Part shown: positions 16,853-38,188 of the stretch, piece by piece | Numbering within the stretch: position 1 is the stretch's first letter | Layout: the number at the start of each line of letters is the position of its first letter | DNA from: Chloroflexota bacterium | GTDB lineage: Bacteria > Chloroflexota > Dehalococcoidia > Lucifugimonadales > Lucifugimonadaceae | Direction: 5' to 3' | Assembly: GCA_002718415.1 (NCBI GenBank) | Contig: PBEM01000004.1 | Span: 100,140 to 164,139, forward strand | DNA length: 64,000 nt | Position numbers and translations under genes: made by a program | Notes under the pieces: model-generated | Databases searched by the model: none | Told to the model about the DNA's origin: nothing | The model's input: the letters and a program-made list of their open reading frames with translations, nothing else

Positions 16853-17545
16853 ATGGCAAGAGAAGAATTTGATAAAGAATTATCTATACTAGAAAGTCAA
16901 CTCGTCATAATGTCTGGGATGGTTGAAGATGCACTACTTAGGTCAGTTAAGGCATTAAAAAATAGAGATATTGATCAATCTCAAAGAGTAATAGAATTGG
17001 ATGATAGGATTGACTTAATAGAAGTAGAAATAGAAAGATTTTGTGTAGATCTTATAAGAAAAGAAGCACCAATTGCTTCGGATCTACGTCGTATAATTAC
17101 CATTTTACAAATATCTAACGAGTTAGAAAGAATGGGGGACTACGCTGAGGGGATAGGAAAAATAAACATCATGATGGGGCCTGAACCTCTTCTGAAAGAA
17201 TTAATAGACATACCTGAAATGGGAAATATATCAGTAGATATGTTAAAAAAATCAATTAATATCTTCATGAAAAAAGAGATGGAAAATCTTAATGAAACTG
17301 CAACTGAAATTAATGAACTTGATAATAAAGTAGATAGTTTAAACGAGAAAATTGTTACTGAATTACTTGAAATAGTAAAAAATGATTCCTCAAAAGCAGA
17401 AAAAGCAACATATTTAATGTGGGCATCTCATAATATAGAAAGATTTGCAGATAGATCTACAAATATTCTTGAAAGAGCTTTTTATTTAGTTTCAGGAGAT
17501 TCTTTCCATGGAACTACAGAACTACAAAAGCATATAGATAGTTAA
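16853..17545 (+). CDS. phoU: Phosphate transport regulator PhoU
   Basis: Two PhoU helical repeats; directly downstream of pstB. Confidence 0.93.
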   Translation: MAREEFDKELSILESQLVIMSGMVEDALLRSVKALKNRDIDQSQRVIELDDRIDLIEVEIERFCVDLIRKEAPIASDLRRIITILQISNELERMGDYAEGIGKINIMMGPEPLLKELIDIPEMGNISVDMLKKSINIFMKKEMENLNETATEINELDNKVDSLNEKIVTELLEIVKNDSSKAEKATYLMWASHNIERFADRSTNILERAFYLVSGDSFHGTTELQKHIDS

Positions 17546-17546
17546 A

Positions 17547-17945
17547 TTATTTATAATTTCTCAATAACTCTTTCTTAATTTTTGGATTATAAAAAGTAAT
17601 TTTTGGTAATAAATTTAAAGGTAAAATATCTTCCTCAGATTTATCTTGATTTTTTATTATATTATTTCCTGTTTTTATAGATCTTTGTATCGTACGTATA
17701 CTAAGATTATATTGCTTTGAAAGATCAATTATAGATTTGCCTTCAGAATTTAATTGGTAGATTTCTTTGTCTCTATTTAGTTTATTTTTCCCTGCTGAAT
17801 ATTCATCATTATCATATTTACATAATGTAAGATGACAATCAAGACAAGATTTTGATATATCACACCCGTTATCTTTATAGTTAGTATTTTCTGGAAGAGT
17901 GTCTGAGCGAACTTTTTTTAAGTTTACATCTATAAAATTTTGCAT
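17547..17945 (-). CDS. Small Cys-rich protein with HTH (Hin/sigma-70 r4-like)
   Basis: CDISKSCLDCHLTLCKYD (four Cys) followed by HTH IYQLNSEGKSIIDLSKQYNLSIRTIQRSIK. Confidence 0.65.
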   Translation of the reverse strand: MQNFIDVNLKKVRSDTLPENTNYKDNGCDISKSCLDCHLTLCKYDNDEYSAGKNKLNRDKEIYQLNSEGKSIIDLSKQYNLSIRTIQRSIKTGNNIIKNQDKSEEDILPLNLLPKITFYNPKIKKELLRNYK

Positions 17946-18065
17946 ATAGTGGCCTCTTTTGTAAATTTATTTCAAAAATTGAAAATTTATCTCGATAATA
18001 AATAATAATCAAAAAAATTACTTTATTATTTATTTGAAGTTCTTAATCATAAAAAAATATATGGA

Positions 18066-18077
18066 GAACATTTGTTC
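18066..18077. promoter_or_regulatory. LexA/SOS-box-like palindrome GAACATTTGTTC (within AGAACATTTGTTCT)
   Basis: Direct reading; matches Gram-positive-type SOS box core GAAC-N4-GTTC. Confidence 0.7.
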
Positions 18078-18084
18078 TATTATA

Positions 18085-18096
18085 GAACATCTGTTC
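18085..18096. promoter_or_regulatory. LexA/SOS-box-like palindrome GAACATCTGTTC (within AGAACATCTGTTCT), tandem with previous
   Basis: Direct reading; 19 bp from the first box. Confidence 0.7.
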
Positions 18097-18119
18097 TGTA
18101 AAGGTCAAGGAAATTTAGT

Positions 18120-19349
18120 TTGTATTTTAGGTATTTGATAAAAATATTATTAATATGTTCTATCGTATTTATAGCTTCATGTAAAAATTCAAATACAAAA
18201 TCAACTATTTCAGTTACATCAGATATTCCAAATGCTATGGAAACTGTAATAGCATCACCCATACCTATAGCTACATTCATCTCAGTACCGACTGCTACCC
18301 CTGTACCAACTTCGACTCCTGACACAAAAATAATAAGTATAGATCCTATGAATAATCCTGAACAATTTATTTCAGAAATTCCTATTCCTGAAATAAATTG
18401 TCTAACAGAGATATTTAATTCTAAAACAGAAATAATAAACCTTATCACCTCTCCACCAGGACAATATCTAATTGATAATGATTTAGCTAAAAATTCAGAC
18501 GAATGTTTATCATATGATTCAAAAGAAAGAATTATTATTGGCCTATTAGATTTTAGCTCTGGAAAACTAACAGATAAAACTAAAAGTTGTATAAAAGATG
18601 TTGGAGTAGGTAACAGTTCATTTATATATCTATTTGCTAAAGATCCTCCTCCAGAAATTTATCTCATAACTTTACAAAGTGTTTTTTGCCTTAACAAAAA
18701 TGAAAGAAGTATATTTGAAAAAAGTAATTATGGTCAAATTACTTCTTCTATGGGCGGTATAGATAAAATTGAATGCTTTATAAATGAATTGGGTCCTCTA
18801 GGGTTAATAAATTTTGATGAACCTCTAAAATTTATAGGAGGTACTTATACTATTAATCAACTATCACCATCAGTGTTAGAAAAATTTTTATCCTGTGGAT
18901 ATTTTGATAATGAACTAAAACTAATTGGAATCACAATAGATGAAAGTTTATGTATTCTTAAAAACACGAATAGTGAAATAATAAAAAATCTATTTGAAAA
19001 ATCAAGTCAAGGACTTTCCGATAACCATATTATCGAATTAACTTTAGCAACAAAAAAATGTGAAATAAATCTAGAAGAAACAACTATCTCTATAAAAAAT
19101 ATAAATACTCAAAAAGTTCCAAAAAAATTAATAAATACCGAATCTGAAAGAAATAATGGAGATAAAGAAAAAAATAATTCGAAAACAGGAATTGAGGAAA
19201 TATTAGAAATAAATGAAATCAATTGCCTTAAGGAATATATTACCGAAGAACAAATTGAAGAAATACTTACAAAATTATCACCTACTCCAGAATTGTTTAC
19301 AGCAATCAATAAATGTAAGATAAATATATTTGAGATATTATCACGTTAG
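18120..19349 (+). CDS. Secreted lipoprotein with T/P-rich linker and repeated Cys-paired helical modules
   Basis: TTG start; signal peptide with lipobox FIASC; PVPTSTP linker; repeated C-x(~29-39)-C segments. Confidence 0.7.
   Translation: MYFRYLIKILLICSIVFIASCKNSNTKSTISVTSDIPNAMETVIASPIPIATFISVPTATPVPTSTPDTKIISIDPMNNPEQFISEIPIPEINCLTEIFNSKTEIINLITSPPGQYLIDNDLAKNSDECLSYDSKERIIIGLLDFSSGKLTDKTKSCIKDVGVGNSSFIYLFAKDPPPEIYLITLQSVFCLNKNERSIFEKSNYGQITSSMGGIDKIECFINELGPLGLINFDEPLKFIGGTYTINQLSPSVLEKFLSCGYFDNELKLIGITIDESLCILKNTNSEIIKNLFEKSSQGLSDNHIIELTLATKKCEINLEETTISIKNINTQKVPKKLINTESERNNGDKEKNNSKTGIEEILEINEINCLKEYITEEQIEEILTKLSPTPELFTAINKCKINIFEILSR
18255..18323 (+). repeat. T/P-rich low-complexity linker coding tract
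   Basis: SPIPIATFISVPTATPVPTSTP. Confidence 0.6.
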
Positions 19350-19406
19350 TTATTCAATATTGATAAGAAGTTTGATATAAAATTATAAAATACTAAGGAT
19401 AAAGCT

Positions 19407-20456
19407 ATGAAAAGTAGAGCTGCTATACACACAAATACCGGACAACCACTAACAGTGGATACGATTGAAATTTCATCCCCAAAAGAAAATTATGTTAATG
19501 TAAAAATGCTATCAAGTGGAATTTGTCATTCACAATTACATCAAATGGAAAATCCTGAATTTCCTACTCCTGCTATGTTAGGTCATGAAGGTACAGGTAT
19601 TGTAACAGAAATTGGTAAAAATGTTTCTCATTTAAAAGAAGGAGACCTAACAATAGTTACGTGGGTCCCTAGAGATCCAATAGTAGGTAGATGGGTACCT
19701 GAACCTGGTAATATGACATGGAATGAAATACCCTTAAAAGGACCGCAAGCTACTTGGTGCGAAGATGTATCTGTCTGGAGCGGGTATGTTGTGAAAATAG
19801 ATGATGATAATCCTAAAGACATTTCTTCAATTGTTGGTTGTGCTATTTTAACCGGTGCCGGAGCTGTTTTAAATACAGCAAAAGTAAGACCTAATGAATC
19901 AGTTGCAGTTTATGGGGTTGGTGGAGTAGGAATTTCTTCTATAAAAATGGCTTCAATTTTAGAAGCATATCCTATCATTGCCGTAGATATTGACGACTCT
20001 AAATTAGAGTTCTCAAAGAAATTCGGTGCTACACACACTGTTAACTCTCTCAAGACAGACCCGATAGAAGCAATACATGAAATTACTTCAGTAGGTGCTG
20101 ATTATGCTTTTGATGCAATAGGTTTAAAAATAACAAATGAACAAATATTACCTTCCGTAAGAGGAGGTGGTCCTGGAGCGGATAATATTGGTGGTATGGC
20201 AGTAATGATAGGAATGCCAGGAAAAGAAATGACTGTAGACCCATCACATTTTATGTTCCATCAAAGACAATACAGAGGATCTCTAGGAGCTACATACCCT
20301 GACAAAGATTTCAATATGTTTTTACGATGGCATAAAGAAGGTAAATTTCCTTTGGAAGAATTAGTTACCAAACGATATAAACTTGATCAAATAAATGAAG
20401 CATGTGATGACCTAAAAAATGGAAAAATTTTAGGTAGAGCCATAATGGAATACTAA
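19407..20456 (+). CDS. Zinc-dependent alcohol dehydrogenase (MDR family)
   Basis: SSGICHSQLH, GHEGTGIVTEIG, VYGVGGVGISSIKMA. Confidence 0.88.
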   Translation: MKSRAAIHTNTGQPLTVDTIEISSPKENYVNVKMLSSGICHSQLHQMENPEFPTPAMLGHEGTGIVTEIGKNVSHLKEGDLTIVTWVPRDPIVGRWVPEPGNMTWNEIPLKGPQATWCEDVSVWSGYVVKIDDDNPKDISSIVGCAILTGAGAVLNTAKVRPNESVAVYGVGGVGISSIKMASILEAYPIIAVDIDDSKLEFSKKFGATHTVNSLKTDPIEAIHEITSVGADYAFDAIGLKITNEQILPSVRGGGPGADNIGGMAVMIGMPGKEMTVDPSHFMFHQRQYRGSLGATYPDKDFNMFLRWHKEGKFPLEELVTKRYKLDQINEACDDLKNGKILGRAIMEY

Positions 20457-20463
20457 ATAAATT

Positions 20464-21426
20464 ATGGAATACAGAATACTTGGTAAAACAGGAGAGAAAG
20501 TTTCTTTATTATCATATGGAACAGGTGGGCCTTCTCAATTTGGACAGAAAACGGGAGGAACAGATAAAAGTAGAAAAAGATTAATCGATATTGCCATAAA
20601 TCATGGTATAAATTTATTTGATACAGCTCCAGCTTATTCTAATAGTGAAGAATTATTAGGTAATGCATTAAAAGGTATCAATAGAGATTCTTATCTCTTA
20701 GCTACTAAAGTATCTACAAGAATTGAAGACTTGAAATCTAGAGGAGATTCAATAGATCAATTAATGAACCCTTCTTTCCCACGTAAGTCTTTGGAGAGGA
20801 GCCTTAAAAAATTAAATCTTGAATATGTAGATATTTTTCAATTTCATGGTTTATTACAAAAAAACTATGAATCAATAACTGATTGTTTTTTAGATTCAAT
20901 AATAAAAGCTCGTGAAGAAGGTTTGATTAGATATATTGGAATAACAGAAAATATGGTGATTGAACCTAGACATACAGCTATGGTAACAGCATTAAATAAA
21001 CACCCTGAAGTTTGGGATACAATGATGCTAAAATATGGAATCATGAATCAATGGGCTGCAAAAAATGTTTTCCCTATAGTTAAAGAAAAAAATATTGGAA
21101 TCCTTAATATGGCTCCCGTTAGAATAACCTTAACTAAAAATTCAAAACTAAATGAAAGATTTAATGATTGGGGAAAAAATCGACCGGATATTGTTGGAAC
21201 TTTAGAAGATTTGAATTCTTTAAATGACAATAACTCAGAAAATAACGATATTATTTCTCAAGGTTATGCCTTTGCTGGTTCACATAAGTGTGTTTCAACA
21301 ATTATCACAGGAACATCAAACGAAAATCATCTATTAGATAATTTAAAATCTATAAATTCAAAAATGGATCGAAATACTATAAAAAAAATAGTCGAATTAT
21401 TTGGTAATTCAGATTCACCGGATTAA
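20464..21426 (+). CDS. Aldo/keto reductase
   Basis: INLFDTAPAYSNSEELLG, YLLATKV, EYVDIFQFHG. Confidence 0.9.
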   Translation: MEYRILGKTGEKVSLLSYGTGGPSQFGQKTGGTDKSRKRLIDIAINHGINLFDTAPAYSNSEELLGNALKGINRDSYLLATKVSTRIEDLKSRGDSIDQLMNPSFPRKSLERSLKKLNLEYVDIFQFHGLLQKNYESITDCFLDSIIKAREEGLIRYIGITENMVIEPRHTAMVTALNKHPEVWDTMMLKYGIMNQWAAKNVFPIVKEKNIGILNMAPVRITLTKNSKLNERFNDWGKNRPDIVGTLEDLNSLNDNNSENNDIISQGYAFAGSHKCVSTIITGTSNENHLLDNLKSINSKMDRNTIKKIVELFGNSDSPD

Positions 21427-22701
21427 CTATATATTTTGTGATATATCTATATCTTTTTGATAATTATCTATCTTACCTGAAATAACATCTGAGACTTTTA
21501 TTTTAGATTCAGTTAGTCCAGATTCGACTATTGCATAAGCTAAACCTATAGCACTTTTACCTTCAGGAATACCTACTTCAGGTTTTCCTCCATTTTGTAT
21601 AGAAAGAATCCAATCCATATATTCATATGCCAATATCCTAGCATCGGTTTCATGAAAGTCTAAATCATATGAAGCAATTAATGAATTCCCATCCCATAAC
21701 TTGGTTGTCAATTCGTCTAATTTGAAATTAGGCACTAAATCTAAAATTTTATCCCCTGATATTTCCTCTCCATTAAATAAAACTAATTTAATTGGATTAC
21801 CTGATCTACTTTCAGTCCTATATAAAGTACCATTACTCCCTGTAATTGTAGATATCGATGCTTTTTGCCCATGAGAAGCATCTGTGATACTTAGTTGCCC
21901 TATAGCACCTGATTTAAATTTAACTAATGCAAATCCAGTATCAACAGCATCTTGTATTACTAGATCTCCAGTGTTATAACCAGGTTCACGTCTATGTTTG
22001 TACATTTTTGCTAGTTGTGGAGCTACTTCACCCATATCATTTAGGGTCCTTTCAGGTTCTAAAATCCTAGTCTCCGCATAAACTGTATCAGCATCTCCCA
22101 TAAGATAAAGTAACATATCTGCATTATGAACCCCTGCGTCTAATACAATACCTCCTGCTTGATCTTTTTTTGCTCTCCATACAGTACTATGCATAACTGA
22201 TCTATGACTACTAACAATATTTAAATCTAAAGCAAAATATGGTATACCTAAAATTCCTTCATCTAATAATGCTTTAGATAATCTATTAATCGGATCTCTT
22301 CTATAATTTTCTGCTACTGCTATTTCCCTTTGGTTTTTATTCGCAGAATCCTCCATTAACCTGCATGCTTTCATCGTTATACCCATCGGTTTCTCAGTTA
22401 TAACGTGTAATCCATTTTCCATAGCGTATATAGCAATCTTATGATGCATAGGAGTACTTGTTACAACTATTACACCATCTAAATCATTGGATTCAATTAA
22501 TTTTTTGTAATCTGTATATATTTTAGGTTTCTTTAGACCAGATTCTTGAATTACTCTAACTGCTTGATTTGCTACATCTTCATGTAAATCACATACCGAA
22601 ATTAAATCAACATTATCAAAATGTTGACGTAATTTTACATATCCCGAAATATGTCTTCTTCCCATTCCACCACAACCAATTAAACCCATTTTAAAAGTCA
22701 A
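21427..22701 (-). CDS. Gfo/Idh/MocA-family oxidoreductase
   Basis: GLIGCGGMGRRHISGY; VITEKPMGITMKACRLME; DAGVHNADMLLYLMGD. Confidence 0.92.
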   Translation of the reverse strand: MTFKMGLIGCGGMGRRHISGYVKLRQHFDNVDLISVCDLHEDVANQAVRVIQESGLKKPKIYTDYKKLIESNDLDGVIVVTSTPMHHKIAIYAMENGLHVITEKPMGITMKACRLMEDSANKNQREIAVAENYRRDPINRLSKALLDEGILGIPYFALDLNIVSSHRSVMHSTVWRAKKDQAGGIVLDAGVHNADMLLYLMGDADTVYAETRILEPERTLNDMGEVAPQLAKMYKHRREPGYNTGDLVIQDAVDTGFALVKFKSGAIGQLSITDASHGQKASISTITGSNGTLYRTESRSGNPIKLVLFNGEEISGDKILDLVPNFKLDELTTKLWDGNSLIASYDLDFHETDARILAYEYMDWILSIQNGGKPEVGIPEGKSAIGLAYAIVESGLTESKIKVSDVISGKIDNYQKDIDISQNI

Positions 22702-22722
22702 TTTAATTCCCTTTCTAATAAT

Positions 22723-23754
22723 CTAATAAGGTAACATCTTTATAAGTTTATCAATGTGTTTTGGATCTGGATCAAATCCTATACCTAAATCATTTACTAT
22801 ATCTATTATTTCATCATTAAAAGGTGTTGGAATATTTACTTCTCTACCTTTTTCAGAAACATAACCATTGAGAAATTCAATTTCTGTCCTTCTTTTTTTT
22901 AATACATCCTGACCAAAGGACGGTCTACCTGCAGAACCTGATCTTCTAGCTGTTTCACTCAAAGAATTCTCAACAATTTCAATATTTTTTCCTTCTGAAG
23001 CGTCAATAATCTGTTCTGGGGAAAGTGAAAGAACTGAATGTAACTTAAAACCCATTGCTAAAGCTACTCTAGCAGCCTCAGCACCTAATTGTATTCCAAT
23101 TCTTCTAACTTCAGGTATTGTTCTAACCTCTGATGTAGAATATCCAGTTAAACCAGCCAAAGCATTAGCCATACAATTGACCATTAGTTTTGACCATCTT
23201 TCTCCCCATAAATCAGATGAGATTTCTGTCTCAGCAACATTACTAAGGATATTTTTTAAATCTTTAAGTCGATCAGAAATCGAACCATCTTGTTCAGCCA
23301 CCTTAAATCCGAGATGATAATTATCTGTTCTAATAACTTTTCCAGGCTCATAACAAGCTGCACCAATAGTAATTACACTACCTAAAGATTTGTCTTTTCC
23401 AACAATGGAAGCCATTCTATGGTCATTTATACCATTTTGAAAGTCAACAAAATATCCAGTTTTAGGATTAGTATATATTTTCATTAATTGGGTGGCCCAT
23501 TCAGTATCATAACTTTTAACAGCTATAAATGAAGCATCAAAAAAAATTGAGATATTTTGCAATTCAGATATAGACAAAGATTTAGGATATGTATTGTATG
23601 TTTTTTCTTGCGTTTCAACCTTAAGACCATTATTTTTAATAGCTACTACGTGCTCATGCCATTGATCAATTAAAGTAACATCATATCCACTATTTGACAA
23701 CAAACCTCCAACAACTCCTCCGATTCCTCCAGCACCGATTATTCCTATTCTCAT
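22723..23754 (-). CDS. Ketopantoate reductase (PanE/ApbA)-family oxidoreductase
   Basis: MRIGIIGAGGIGGVVGGLLSNSGYDVTLIDQW; WGERWSKLMVNCMANALAGLTG. Confidence 0.85.
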   Translation of the reverse strand: MRIGIIGAGGIGGVVGGLLSNSGYDVTLIDQWHEHVVAIKNNGLKVETQEKTYNTYPKSLSISELQNISIFFDASFIAVKSYDTEWATQLMKIYTNPKTGYFVDFQNGINDHRMASIVGKDKSLGSVITIGAACYEPGKVIRTDNYHLGFKVAEQDGSISDRLKDLKNILSNVAETEISSDLWGERWSKLMVNCMANALAGLTGYSTSEVRTIPEVRRIGIQLGAEAARVALAMGFKLHSVLSLSPEQIIDASEGKNIEIVENSLSETARRSGSAGRPSFGQDVLKKRRTEIEFLNGYVSEKGREVNIPTPFNDEIIDIVNDLGIGFDPDPKHIDKLIKMLPY

Positions 23755-23778
23755 AAATACCTCCAGAAAATTCTTATT

Positions 23779-24915
23779 TTATAATAATCTTTCAATGGTA
23801 AAAGAATTTATACTAAATTTACTTTTACCATTATTTATTAGATTAAACGCTATTTCTCCAATTACAGGAGAAAATTTAAATCCATGACCAGAACAAGGAC
23901 TCAATATTAATACATTCTTATATTCTGGATGGAAATCTATTATAAATTCTCGATCTGGAGTATTTGTATACATACAAACTGCAGATCTAACGGAATCAAC
24001 ATCTAAATCAGGGATATAAGATTTCATTATAGTTCGTAATTTTTTTTCTTCATTTAAATTAATCTTATTTCTATCCAATTTATCGGGATCTACTTCATAT
24101 CCATCATGATGGATGGCAGCCTTAATTCCATCTCCAAAATTTGGTTGAATATAAATCATCTTACCATCTTCATACTCCCATGAATGATTTGGTGAATTTT
24201 GTGGTAAAAATTTTTCCGCATTATTAATCGGATCAAACCAAAACAAAATCTGTCTTTCAATAAATAAAGGTAAATTAATATCTTTTAATAAATTAGGTAA
24301 CCAAGCACCGGAACAAATTATTAACTTATCTCCATAATAGGTATCTCCTGTTTCTGTTTTTAAGGTTACATAATTATCATCTGAAATCCATTTTGAGATT
24401 TTTGTATTGAAATGTAATTCAGCTCCATATTCTTTGGAAAAATTTAAATTTGTATTTATTACATTCTCTGGAAAAACAGCACCACCCATCAAATCTAAAA
24501 CACCCTCCATTTCTTCTTCAGGATTAAAAATTTCCCATCTAGATTTAATATCGTTACTAGTTAGTATTTCGATTTCACAATTATGAACTTCTGAACTATG
24601 TTTAATACCTTCTAAAGAATTAGCTCCTTTTTTGGCAATCATTAATCCACCAATTATTTGAATTATTTCTAAATTAGTTTGATTTTGAAGTTCAAAAAAT
24701 AATTCATATGATCTATTTAATAATGGTACAAAATGAGAACCTTCAGAATATGATTTTCTTATGATTCTTGCCTTCCCATGAGATGAACCCATTGTATGGG
24801 GTGGATTATACATATCAAAACCAATTACACTCATTCCATTTTTAGCAAGATTATATACAGTTGAACTTCCATGAGCTCCTAAACCTATTACTAATACATC
24901 AGCTTTTTTGATAAT
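23779..24915 (-). CDS. FAD-dependent amino-acid/sarcosine oxidase-like oxidoreductase (DAO family); N-terminus extended beyond the ORF-track start, probable non-canonical start
   Basis: In-frame upstream IIKKADVLVIGLGAHGSSTVYNLAKNG supplies the Rossmann GxGxxG missing from the 24834 ORF; SD-like AAAGGA 5 nt before ATT at 24915. Confidence 0.75.
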   Translation of the reverse strand: MIKKADVLVIGLGAHGSSTVYNLAKNGMSVIGFDMYNPPHTMGSSHGKARIIRKSYSEGSHFVPLLNRSYELFFELQNQTNLEIIQIIGGLMIAKKGANSLEGIKHSSEVHNCEIEILTSNDIKSRWEIFNPEEEMEGVLDLMGGAVFPENVINTNLNFSKEYGAELHFNTKISKWISDDNYVTLKTETGDTYYGDKLIICSGAWLPNLLKDINLPLFIERQILFWFDPINNAEKFLPQNSPNHSWEYEDGKMIYIQPNFGDGIKAAIHHDGYEVDPDKLDRNKINLNEEKKLRTIMKSYIPDLDVDSVRSAVCMYTNTPDREFIIDFHPEYKNVLILSPCSGHGFKFSPVIGEIAFNLINNGKSKFSINSFTIERLL

Positions 24916-24993
24916 AAATATCCTTTACTAAATATTCTCTTGCCCAATAGTAAAATAATTTAATAGAATTTAGTATATATATTAATATTAAAA

Positions 24994-25197
24994 TTAAAAA
25001 GAAAATTTAGATGTAAATCTTGCCTTAGATATCTTTAATTCATTATCAATAGCTTCAAACATTTTTTCAACATCACCGTCATCATAATTAAATGAATTTC
25101 TATTAGAACATTGCGTCAATATTCTTATCTTTTCAATTACTGCATTTGTTCTTTTTTCTGCTTGGTTTCTAAAAGCTATTTTCATTTCTTGTTCCAT
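24994..25197 (-). CDS. Small conserved-looking protein (67 aa) with upstream SOS-box-like site
   Basis: MEQEMKIAFRNQAEKRTNAVIEKIRILTQCSNRNSFNYDDGDVEKMFEAIDNELKISKARFTSKFSF; resembles widespread short proteins with RTN-x-[IL]-R-L...SNRxNYxY motif (recalled, not searched). Confidence 0.65.
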   Translation of the reverse strand: MEQEMKIAFRNQAEKRTNAVIEKIRILTQCSNRNSFNYDDGDVEKMFEAIDNELKISKARFTSKFSF

Positions 25198-25247
25198 AAT
25201 TTAACTCCCTAAATTTAATAAGTTAGTAATTAGTAATCATAACCATA

Positions 25248-25259
25248 GAACATATGTTC
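25248..25259. promoter_or_regulatory. LexA/SOS-box-like palindrome GAACATATGTTC (within AGAACATATGTTCT)
   Basis: Direct reading; 50 bp upstream of the 67-aa ORF start at 25197. Confidence 0.72.
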
Positions 25260-25452
25260 TTTATATCTAATTTTTAATGTCGCAGTTTTTCGATGAAAAA
25301 AATTTCTTTAGACGATATAAAAGTAATATTTATATTTTTTTTGGTAATTTATAAAATTTTTTTAACAATTTATTCTTTATAAGATAAAATAATCCTTATA
25401 AAGAAATTACGAAGTTTTAATGCGAAATTAAATATTTACTTTTAAAAACATT

Positions 25453-37510: not shown

Positions 37511-38188
37511 ATGACTATACTAAGTGTTCGCCAAAAAAAAATAATCGACTTTATAGAAAAATGGTTTGCAGAATATGACTATGCTCCTAGTGTAAGAGAT
37601 ATACAAATAGGATGTGAAATAAGTTCGACTTCAGTAGTACAATACAATTTAGAAAAATTAAAAAAAATTGGAATTTTGAAAAATCATTCTGAGGTTTCTA
37701 GAAGCTTAAGATTAACTCAGCACAATTCACAATTACCTAAATATGGTACAAACAATTTAAATCATAATATAACTGAAATTTTTTCTGTCCCAATGCTTGG
37801 GACTATCTCAGCTGGAGAACCTTTCCCACTACCAGATGAAGAATCATGGTCTGAAATTTACAGTAAAGAACATATTGAATTACCACAATCTATTGCTGGA
37901 AACTCAAGTAATATTTATGCATTAAAAGTTAAAGGTAAATCCATGATTGATGCATTAATCTCTGATGGTGATTTGGTCATAATGCAACATACAAAAATAG
38001 TTAGTAATGGTCAGATGGCTGCTGTAAGAATAATAAAAGACAATACAACAACATTGAAAAATTATTTCCAAAAAGGAAATAACGTACGTTTAGAACCGGC
38101 TAATAAAGATTTCAGGCCGATTTTACTTGAATCAAAAGATGTAGAAATTATAGGAAAAGTAAAAGCAGTTTGGAGAATGCTTAAATAA
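37511..38188 (+). CDS. lexA: LexA repressor
   Basis: N-terminal winged HTH (SVRDIQIGCEISSTSVVQYNLEKLKKIG); SAGEP Ala-Gly cleavage site; GKSMIDALISDGDLVIM Ser and TTLKNYF Lys. Confidence 0.93.
   Translation: MTILSVRQKKIIDFIEKWFAEYDYAPSVRDIQIGCEISSTSVVQYNLEKLKKIGILKNHSEVSRSLRLTQHNSQLPKYGTNNLNHNITEIFSVPMLGTISAGEPFPLPDEESWSEIYSKEHIELPQSIAGNSSNIYALKVKGKSMIDALISDGDLVIMQHTKIVSNGQMAAVRIIKDNTTTLKNYFQKGNNVRLEPANKDFRPILLESKDVEIIGKVKAVWRMLK

Follow-up and report, generated by a model that had tools for sequence, protein, structure and literature searches.

In Bacillus subtilis and other Gram-positive bacteria, the LexA box has the core GAAC-N4-GTTC (PMC3323433); this palindrome lies over the core promoter and is bound there by LexA. 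A further point of comparison is Streptococcus thermophilus, in which cinA-recA is controlled by HdiR (PMC8565304). Open-licence papers on LexA together with Chloroflexi, SAR202 or Dehalococcoides contained no account of the box described below. We analysed a stretch of 64,000 nucleotides from a Chloroflexota bacterium (the whole stretch is called the window here) and found three palindromes that are very probably LexA operators, belonging to an SOS regulon whose box is of the GAAC-N4-GTTC type. They have the same core, the same palindromic form and the same placement over a core promoter as the Gram-positive box, but are extended to AGAACANNTGTTCT or TGTGCT, and the window species carries the box at an uncharacterised HTH gene and at a 67-aa gene rather than at recA or lexA. 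The likeness to the HdiR system lies in the placement of cinA under what would be an SOS-type repressor. In contrast to that system, the box here is of the LexA type, cinA is divergent from the HTH gene and not part of a recA operon, and cinA appears to have been lost in the window species.

Three intergenic palindromes share one extended motif

Perfect matches to AGAACATNTGTTCT occur at three places in the window, with variation confined to position 8. The genome of the window species (G000; 1.06 Mb in 15 contigs) contains no further perfect copy, at a completeness of 74% that leaves about a quarter of the genome possibly missing.

18065-18078, no strand: putative LexA operator A, AGAACATTTGTTCT, directly 3' of the -10 element of the leftward promoter; tandem arrangement kept in G001 and G002
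18084-18097, no strand: putative LexA operator B, AGAACATCTGTTCT, between the -35 and -10 elements of the leftward promoter, at a distance of 19 bp from operator A
25247-25260, no strand: putative LexA operator C, AGAACATATGTTCT, a perfect palindrome, kept in G001

The first-pass annotation had reported these three copies as intergenic and as differing in the central base, and on both points it was correct. No credible gene overlaps any of the palindromes, the sole overlap being a mechanical 122-aa open reading frame on the minus strand that spans 18084-18097 and is without support. The first-pass argument against chance, built on the 8-base core, proved too weak, as the bare core GAACNNNNGTTC occurs eight times genome-wide compared with five times for a reversed control. 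With genome-wide enrichment not clear, we rejected the bare core as evidence. For the complete AGAACATNTGTTCT motif, base composition predicts 0.0026 matches per strand in a 64-kb window, and 300 dinucleotide shuffles produced zero matches. Near matches inspected elsewhere in the genome were nearly all within genes; the one-mismatch sites that we considered and set aside numbered three, two inside genes and one intergenic, before a 475-aa gene. The significance of the palindromes derives instead from their 13 specified bases, their conservation in G001 and G002, and family-wide tests.

Two members of the same genus retain the sites. G001 has both the tandem pair and the single site in the same layout, with a tandem spacing of 19 bp and approximately 7.18 kb to the single site, and G002 has the tandem pair, again in the same layout and with 19-bp spacing. 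The boxes stand out as islands of identity amid diverged flanks in these genus members. Across 60 relatives, AGAACANNTGTTCT was found at 46 places compared with 7 for a control pattern, and the association of the box with its neighbours across the family spans genomes of about 27 to 65% GC; the relatives share ancestry, and counts of sites or loci given here and below are not counts of independent events.

The putative tandem operators straddle a promoter-like sequence directed towards a Cys4-HTH gene

The surroundings of the tandem pair contain the following features.

18079-18108, minus strand: promoter-like TTGACC-18-TATAAT directed towards the HTH gene, with an 11/12 consensus match and the same geometry in G001, G002 and relatives
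17547-17945, minus strand: gene for a 132-aa Cys4-HTH protein, the likeliest target of the tandem pair
16853-17545, plus strand: PhoU gene, a kept neighbour convergent with the HTH gene, included for context only
18120-19349, plus strand: gene for a 409-aa lipoprotein-like product with a TTG start and a lipobox-like IASC, to the right of the tandem pair in the place that cinA occupies in relatives; a weaker candidate target

The gene served by the tandem pair is most likely the HTH gene on the minus strand, not the one to the right of the pair. A search at the protein, not the DNA, level found the Cys4-HTH gene in 57 of 80 genomes, and the 30 loci fetched for the box test are the best-scoring of those found by protein homology. 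All 30 of these best loci carry a box, in 26 cases as a tandem with a spacing of 17-24 bp; the regulon described as local by the first-pass annotation is part of a family-wide one. By comparison, shuffles gave 2.5 loci with a box and no tandem, and control loci of pol IV-type Y-family polymerases gave 4 of 27 with a box, also with no tandem. The best -35/-10 pair around the boxes of the 30 HTH loci points towards the HTH gene in 25, is tied in 5 and points away from it in none.

The usual layout in relatives is cinA, tandem boxes and HTH gene, with cinA divergent. A single gene of 172 to about 250 aa sometimes lies between the boxes and the HTH gene, and phoU and pstB often adjoin the latter. 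In genus g7 (L051:1548-2066 and L124:7820-8338), this intervening gene matches NCBIfam NF052413 (E 1.5e-91), the NOV1T2S5 family, which is named as terpene biosynthesis-related; in L051, lexA adjoins the operon of tandem boxes, NF052413 gene and HTH gene. The order in G002 is boxes, cinA, lipoprotein and dehydrogenase, and in the window and G001 it is boxes, lipoprotein and dehydrogenase; CinA was not found elsewhere in G000 or G001. We infer that the window species and G001 lost cinA, and that it was the HTH gene that kept the boxes in place.

The lipoprotein gene deserves consideration as the main target of a LexA-bound tandem pair, for instance if its product were an envelope or division factor induced in the SOS response, as its start lies 23 bp (window) and 17 bp (G001) from the pair and divergent cinA occupies its side in relatives. 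We nevertheless regard this as improbable: neither in the window nor in G001 did the promoter scan recognise a rightward promoter leading to the lipoprotein gene, the only good promoter found in the window faces the HTH gene, and G007, G026 and G034 keep box and HTH gene with neither cinA nor the lipoprotein gene adjoining. LexA could also repress both sides of the tandem pair.

The single site precedes a gene for a small protein

Operator C is associated with two features on the minus strand.

24994-25197, minus strand: gene for a 67-aa small protein, a predicted helical hairpin, 50 bp downstream of operator C
25242-25270, minus strand: weak promoter-like TTAGAT-17-TATGGT around operator C, read from the sequence and below the scan threshold

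In G001, the single site also precedes the 67-aa gene at the matching place, and there the promoter scan recovered TTGGAA-17-TATTAT. The helical hairpin was predicted from one sequence (pLDDT 83). Scanning the genome collection with the 67-aa protein returned one match, in the G001 contig; three distant homologs from other families lack a box upstream.

The same box accompanies SOS genes in relatives

A one-base variant of the motif, AGAACANNTGTGCT, was found at 28 sites in the 60 relatives compared with 4 for the control, and translated comparison placed 15 of the 28 upstream of recA and 3 upstream of lexA. Many family members have AGAACANNTGTGCT before recA and AGAACATTAGTGCG or a close form before lexA. 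The symmetric form precedes umuD-umuC in G053 and imuB or DUF72-imuB in G005, G013, G015, G022, G028 and G031, and it is also found before cinA and before an ftsZ paralog. Furthermore, a matrix built solely from boxes of recA and lexA, used with a threshold of 15 bits, has the three sites as its top-ranked and only window matches at or above that threshold, where 0.12 were expected. The first-pass annotation had taken the motif for a LexA/SOS box and had proposed looking for it at SOS genes of the genome and its relatives; in the relatives the variant is present at recA and lexA, and umuDC, imuB and cinA carry the motif itself, in agreement with that reading. The three intergenic sites, with their GAAC-N4-GTTC core and with operator B inside a promoter spacer, are palindromes of the LexA-box type. 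Loci of pol IV-type Y-family polymerases showed no box excess and were rejected as targets.

Several further boxes were observed in relatives. In G053 (L126:4444-5581), a divergent FtsZ paralog that scores below the TIGR00065 cut-off has a box 48 bp ahead of it, and in G051 (L058) a box is near another FtsZ paralog; the SOS response may thus be linked to cell division. Two genomes of genus g5 (L038, L040) have a box between dnaA and a divergent methionyl-tRNA formyltransferase-like gene.

The constant linkage of tandem boxes to the Cys4-HTH gene raises the alternative that the Cys4-HTH protein itself, and not LexA, binds the boxes as an autoregulator with further targets. This is very unlikely because lexA, umuDC and an ftsZ paralog all carry boxes in G053, a genome in which no Cys4-HTH protein was detectable; box placement at recA and lexA in distant loci also speaks against it. 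Chance palindromes can be dismissed almost completely: although the 8-base core by itself shows no clear excess in this genome, position and spacing are kept within the genus in diverged flanks and the association is family-wide.

LexA is encoded in the window, and recA and lexA lack a recognisable box in this species

The candidate repressor is encoded on the same stretch of DNA, at the place already named in the first-pass annotation.

37511-38188, plus strand: LexA repressor, TIGR00498 at 156.8 bits (cut-off 110.95), aligned with solved LexA structures

The product is, by sequence, a full-length LexA repressor and the sole LexA homolog found in G000. Its A-G cleavage site and Ser/Lys dyad are in place, as judged from the sequence and the alignment with LexA structures. 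The stretches upstream of recA and lexA in G000 contain no recognisable box, and a canonical SOS regulon was not found there. The box upstream of recA is AGAACATATGTGCT in G001 and AGAACATATGTACT in G002, and upstream of lexA no recognisable box was found in any of the three genus members. A Y-family polymerase was not found in G000, at its 74% completeness. With recA and lexA lacking a recognisable box, the classical SOS core is therefore not visibly under LexA control in the window species.

The Cys4-HTH protein may be a second-tier regulator

Across 16 sequences of the Cys4-HTH protein, D25, G27, C28, C34, L35, C37, C42, D45, R58 and an S-R-T-R pattern in the HTH are invariant. The four cysteines are suggestive of a site that binds a metal or an Fe-S cluster. 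The 132-aa protein matched no Pfam family and gave weak matches only, to phage late activators and to HTHs of the LuxR and other types; a single-sequence structure prediction was unusable (pLDDT 35.6). It is probably a DNA-binding protein that holds a metal or an Fe-S cluster and acts as a second-tier regulator, a role that we infer.

The weak similarity to phage late transcriptional activators (phrog_836, phrog_532) extends over 37 residues of the HTH of the 132-aa protein (E 0.0035) and leaves the Cys4 part uncovered; for a same-class Cys4-HTH homolog located before a portal gene, the match reaches E 1.3e-5. The same-class homolog had no match among 50,697 phage records. There are no phage genes beside the 132-aa gene in the window, whereas same-class homologs have a phage context. 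Given the weak 37-residue match and the lack of phage context in the window, we did not assign the 132-aa protein to the phage late transcriptional activators, for which a full-length family match and a phage late-gene context would be expected.

At the same-class loci L241-L243, L245-L250, L254, L272, L273 and L275, a single LexA-type box is followed by a Cys4-HTH homolog and then by a phage portal gene, and L272 and L273 have a second box before a terminase-like gene pair pointing back. The arrangement at these loci is possibly an SOS-controlled prophage remnant or a gene-transfer-agent-like cluster. Genera g4 and g9 (L133-L135, L056 and L057) have a perfect box in front of a cluster that encodes a prohead protease and a major head protein; the small genomes of genera g1, g5, g6 and g7 lack this head protein. 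A tentative idea, which we hold to be less probable than its contrary, is that the class has long had the Cys4-HTH protein as a second-tier regulator induced in the SOS response, perhaps a domesticated activator of a prophage or of a gene-transfer-agent-like cluster, and that in streamlined genomes like that of the window species it has outlasted cinA, any phage genes and LexA control of recA.

Proposed mechanism and implications

The geometry of the tandem pair suggests how LexA might act at this locus. Operator B fills the -35/-10 spacer of a leftward sigma-70-type promoter and operator A covers its probable start site; as the operators straddle the promoter in this way, two LexA dimers at the tandem pair would block RNA polymerase. 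RecA filaments would induce LexA self-cleavage, the promoter would open and the 132-aa Cys4-HTH protein would be made. Operator C would likewise repress the gene for the 67-aa helical hairpin. LexA binding at the sites and induction by damage are predictions drawn from sequence.

These results define a probable LexA box for a marine Chloroflexota family, one of whose most constant companions is an uncharacterised Cys4-HTH protein and not a repair gene. In the window species, an accessory regulator seems to have stayed under LexA while recA has escaped it, and the box gives a direct and testable way into how uncultured ocean bacteria respond to DNA damage.
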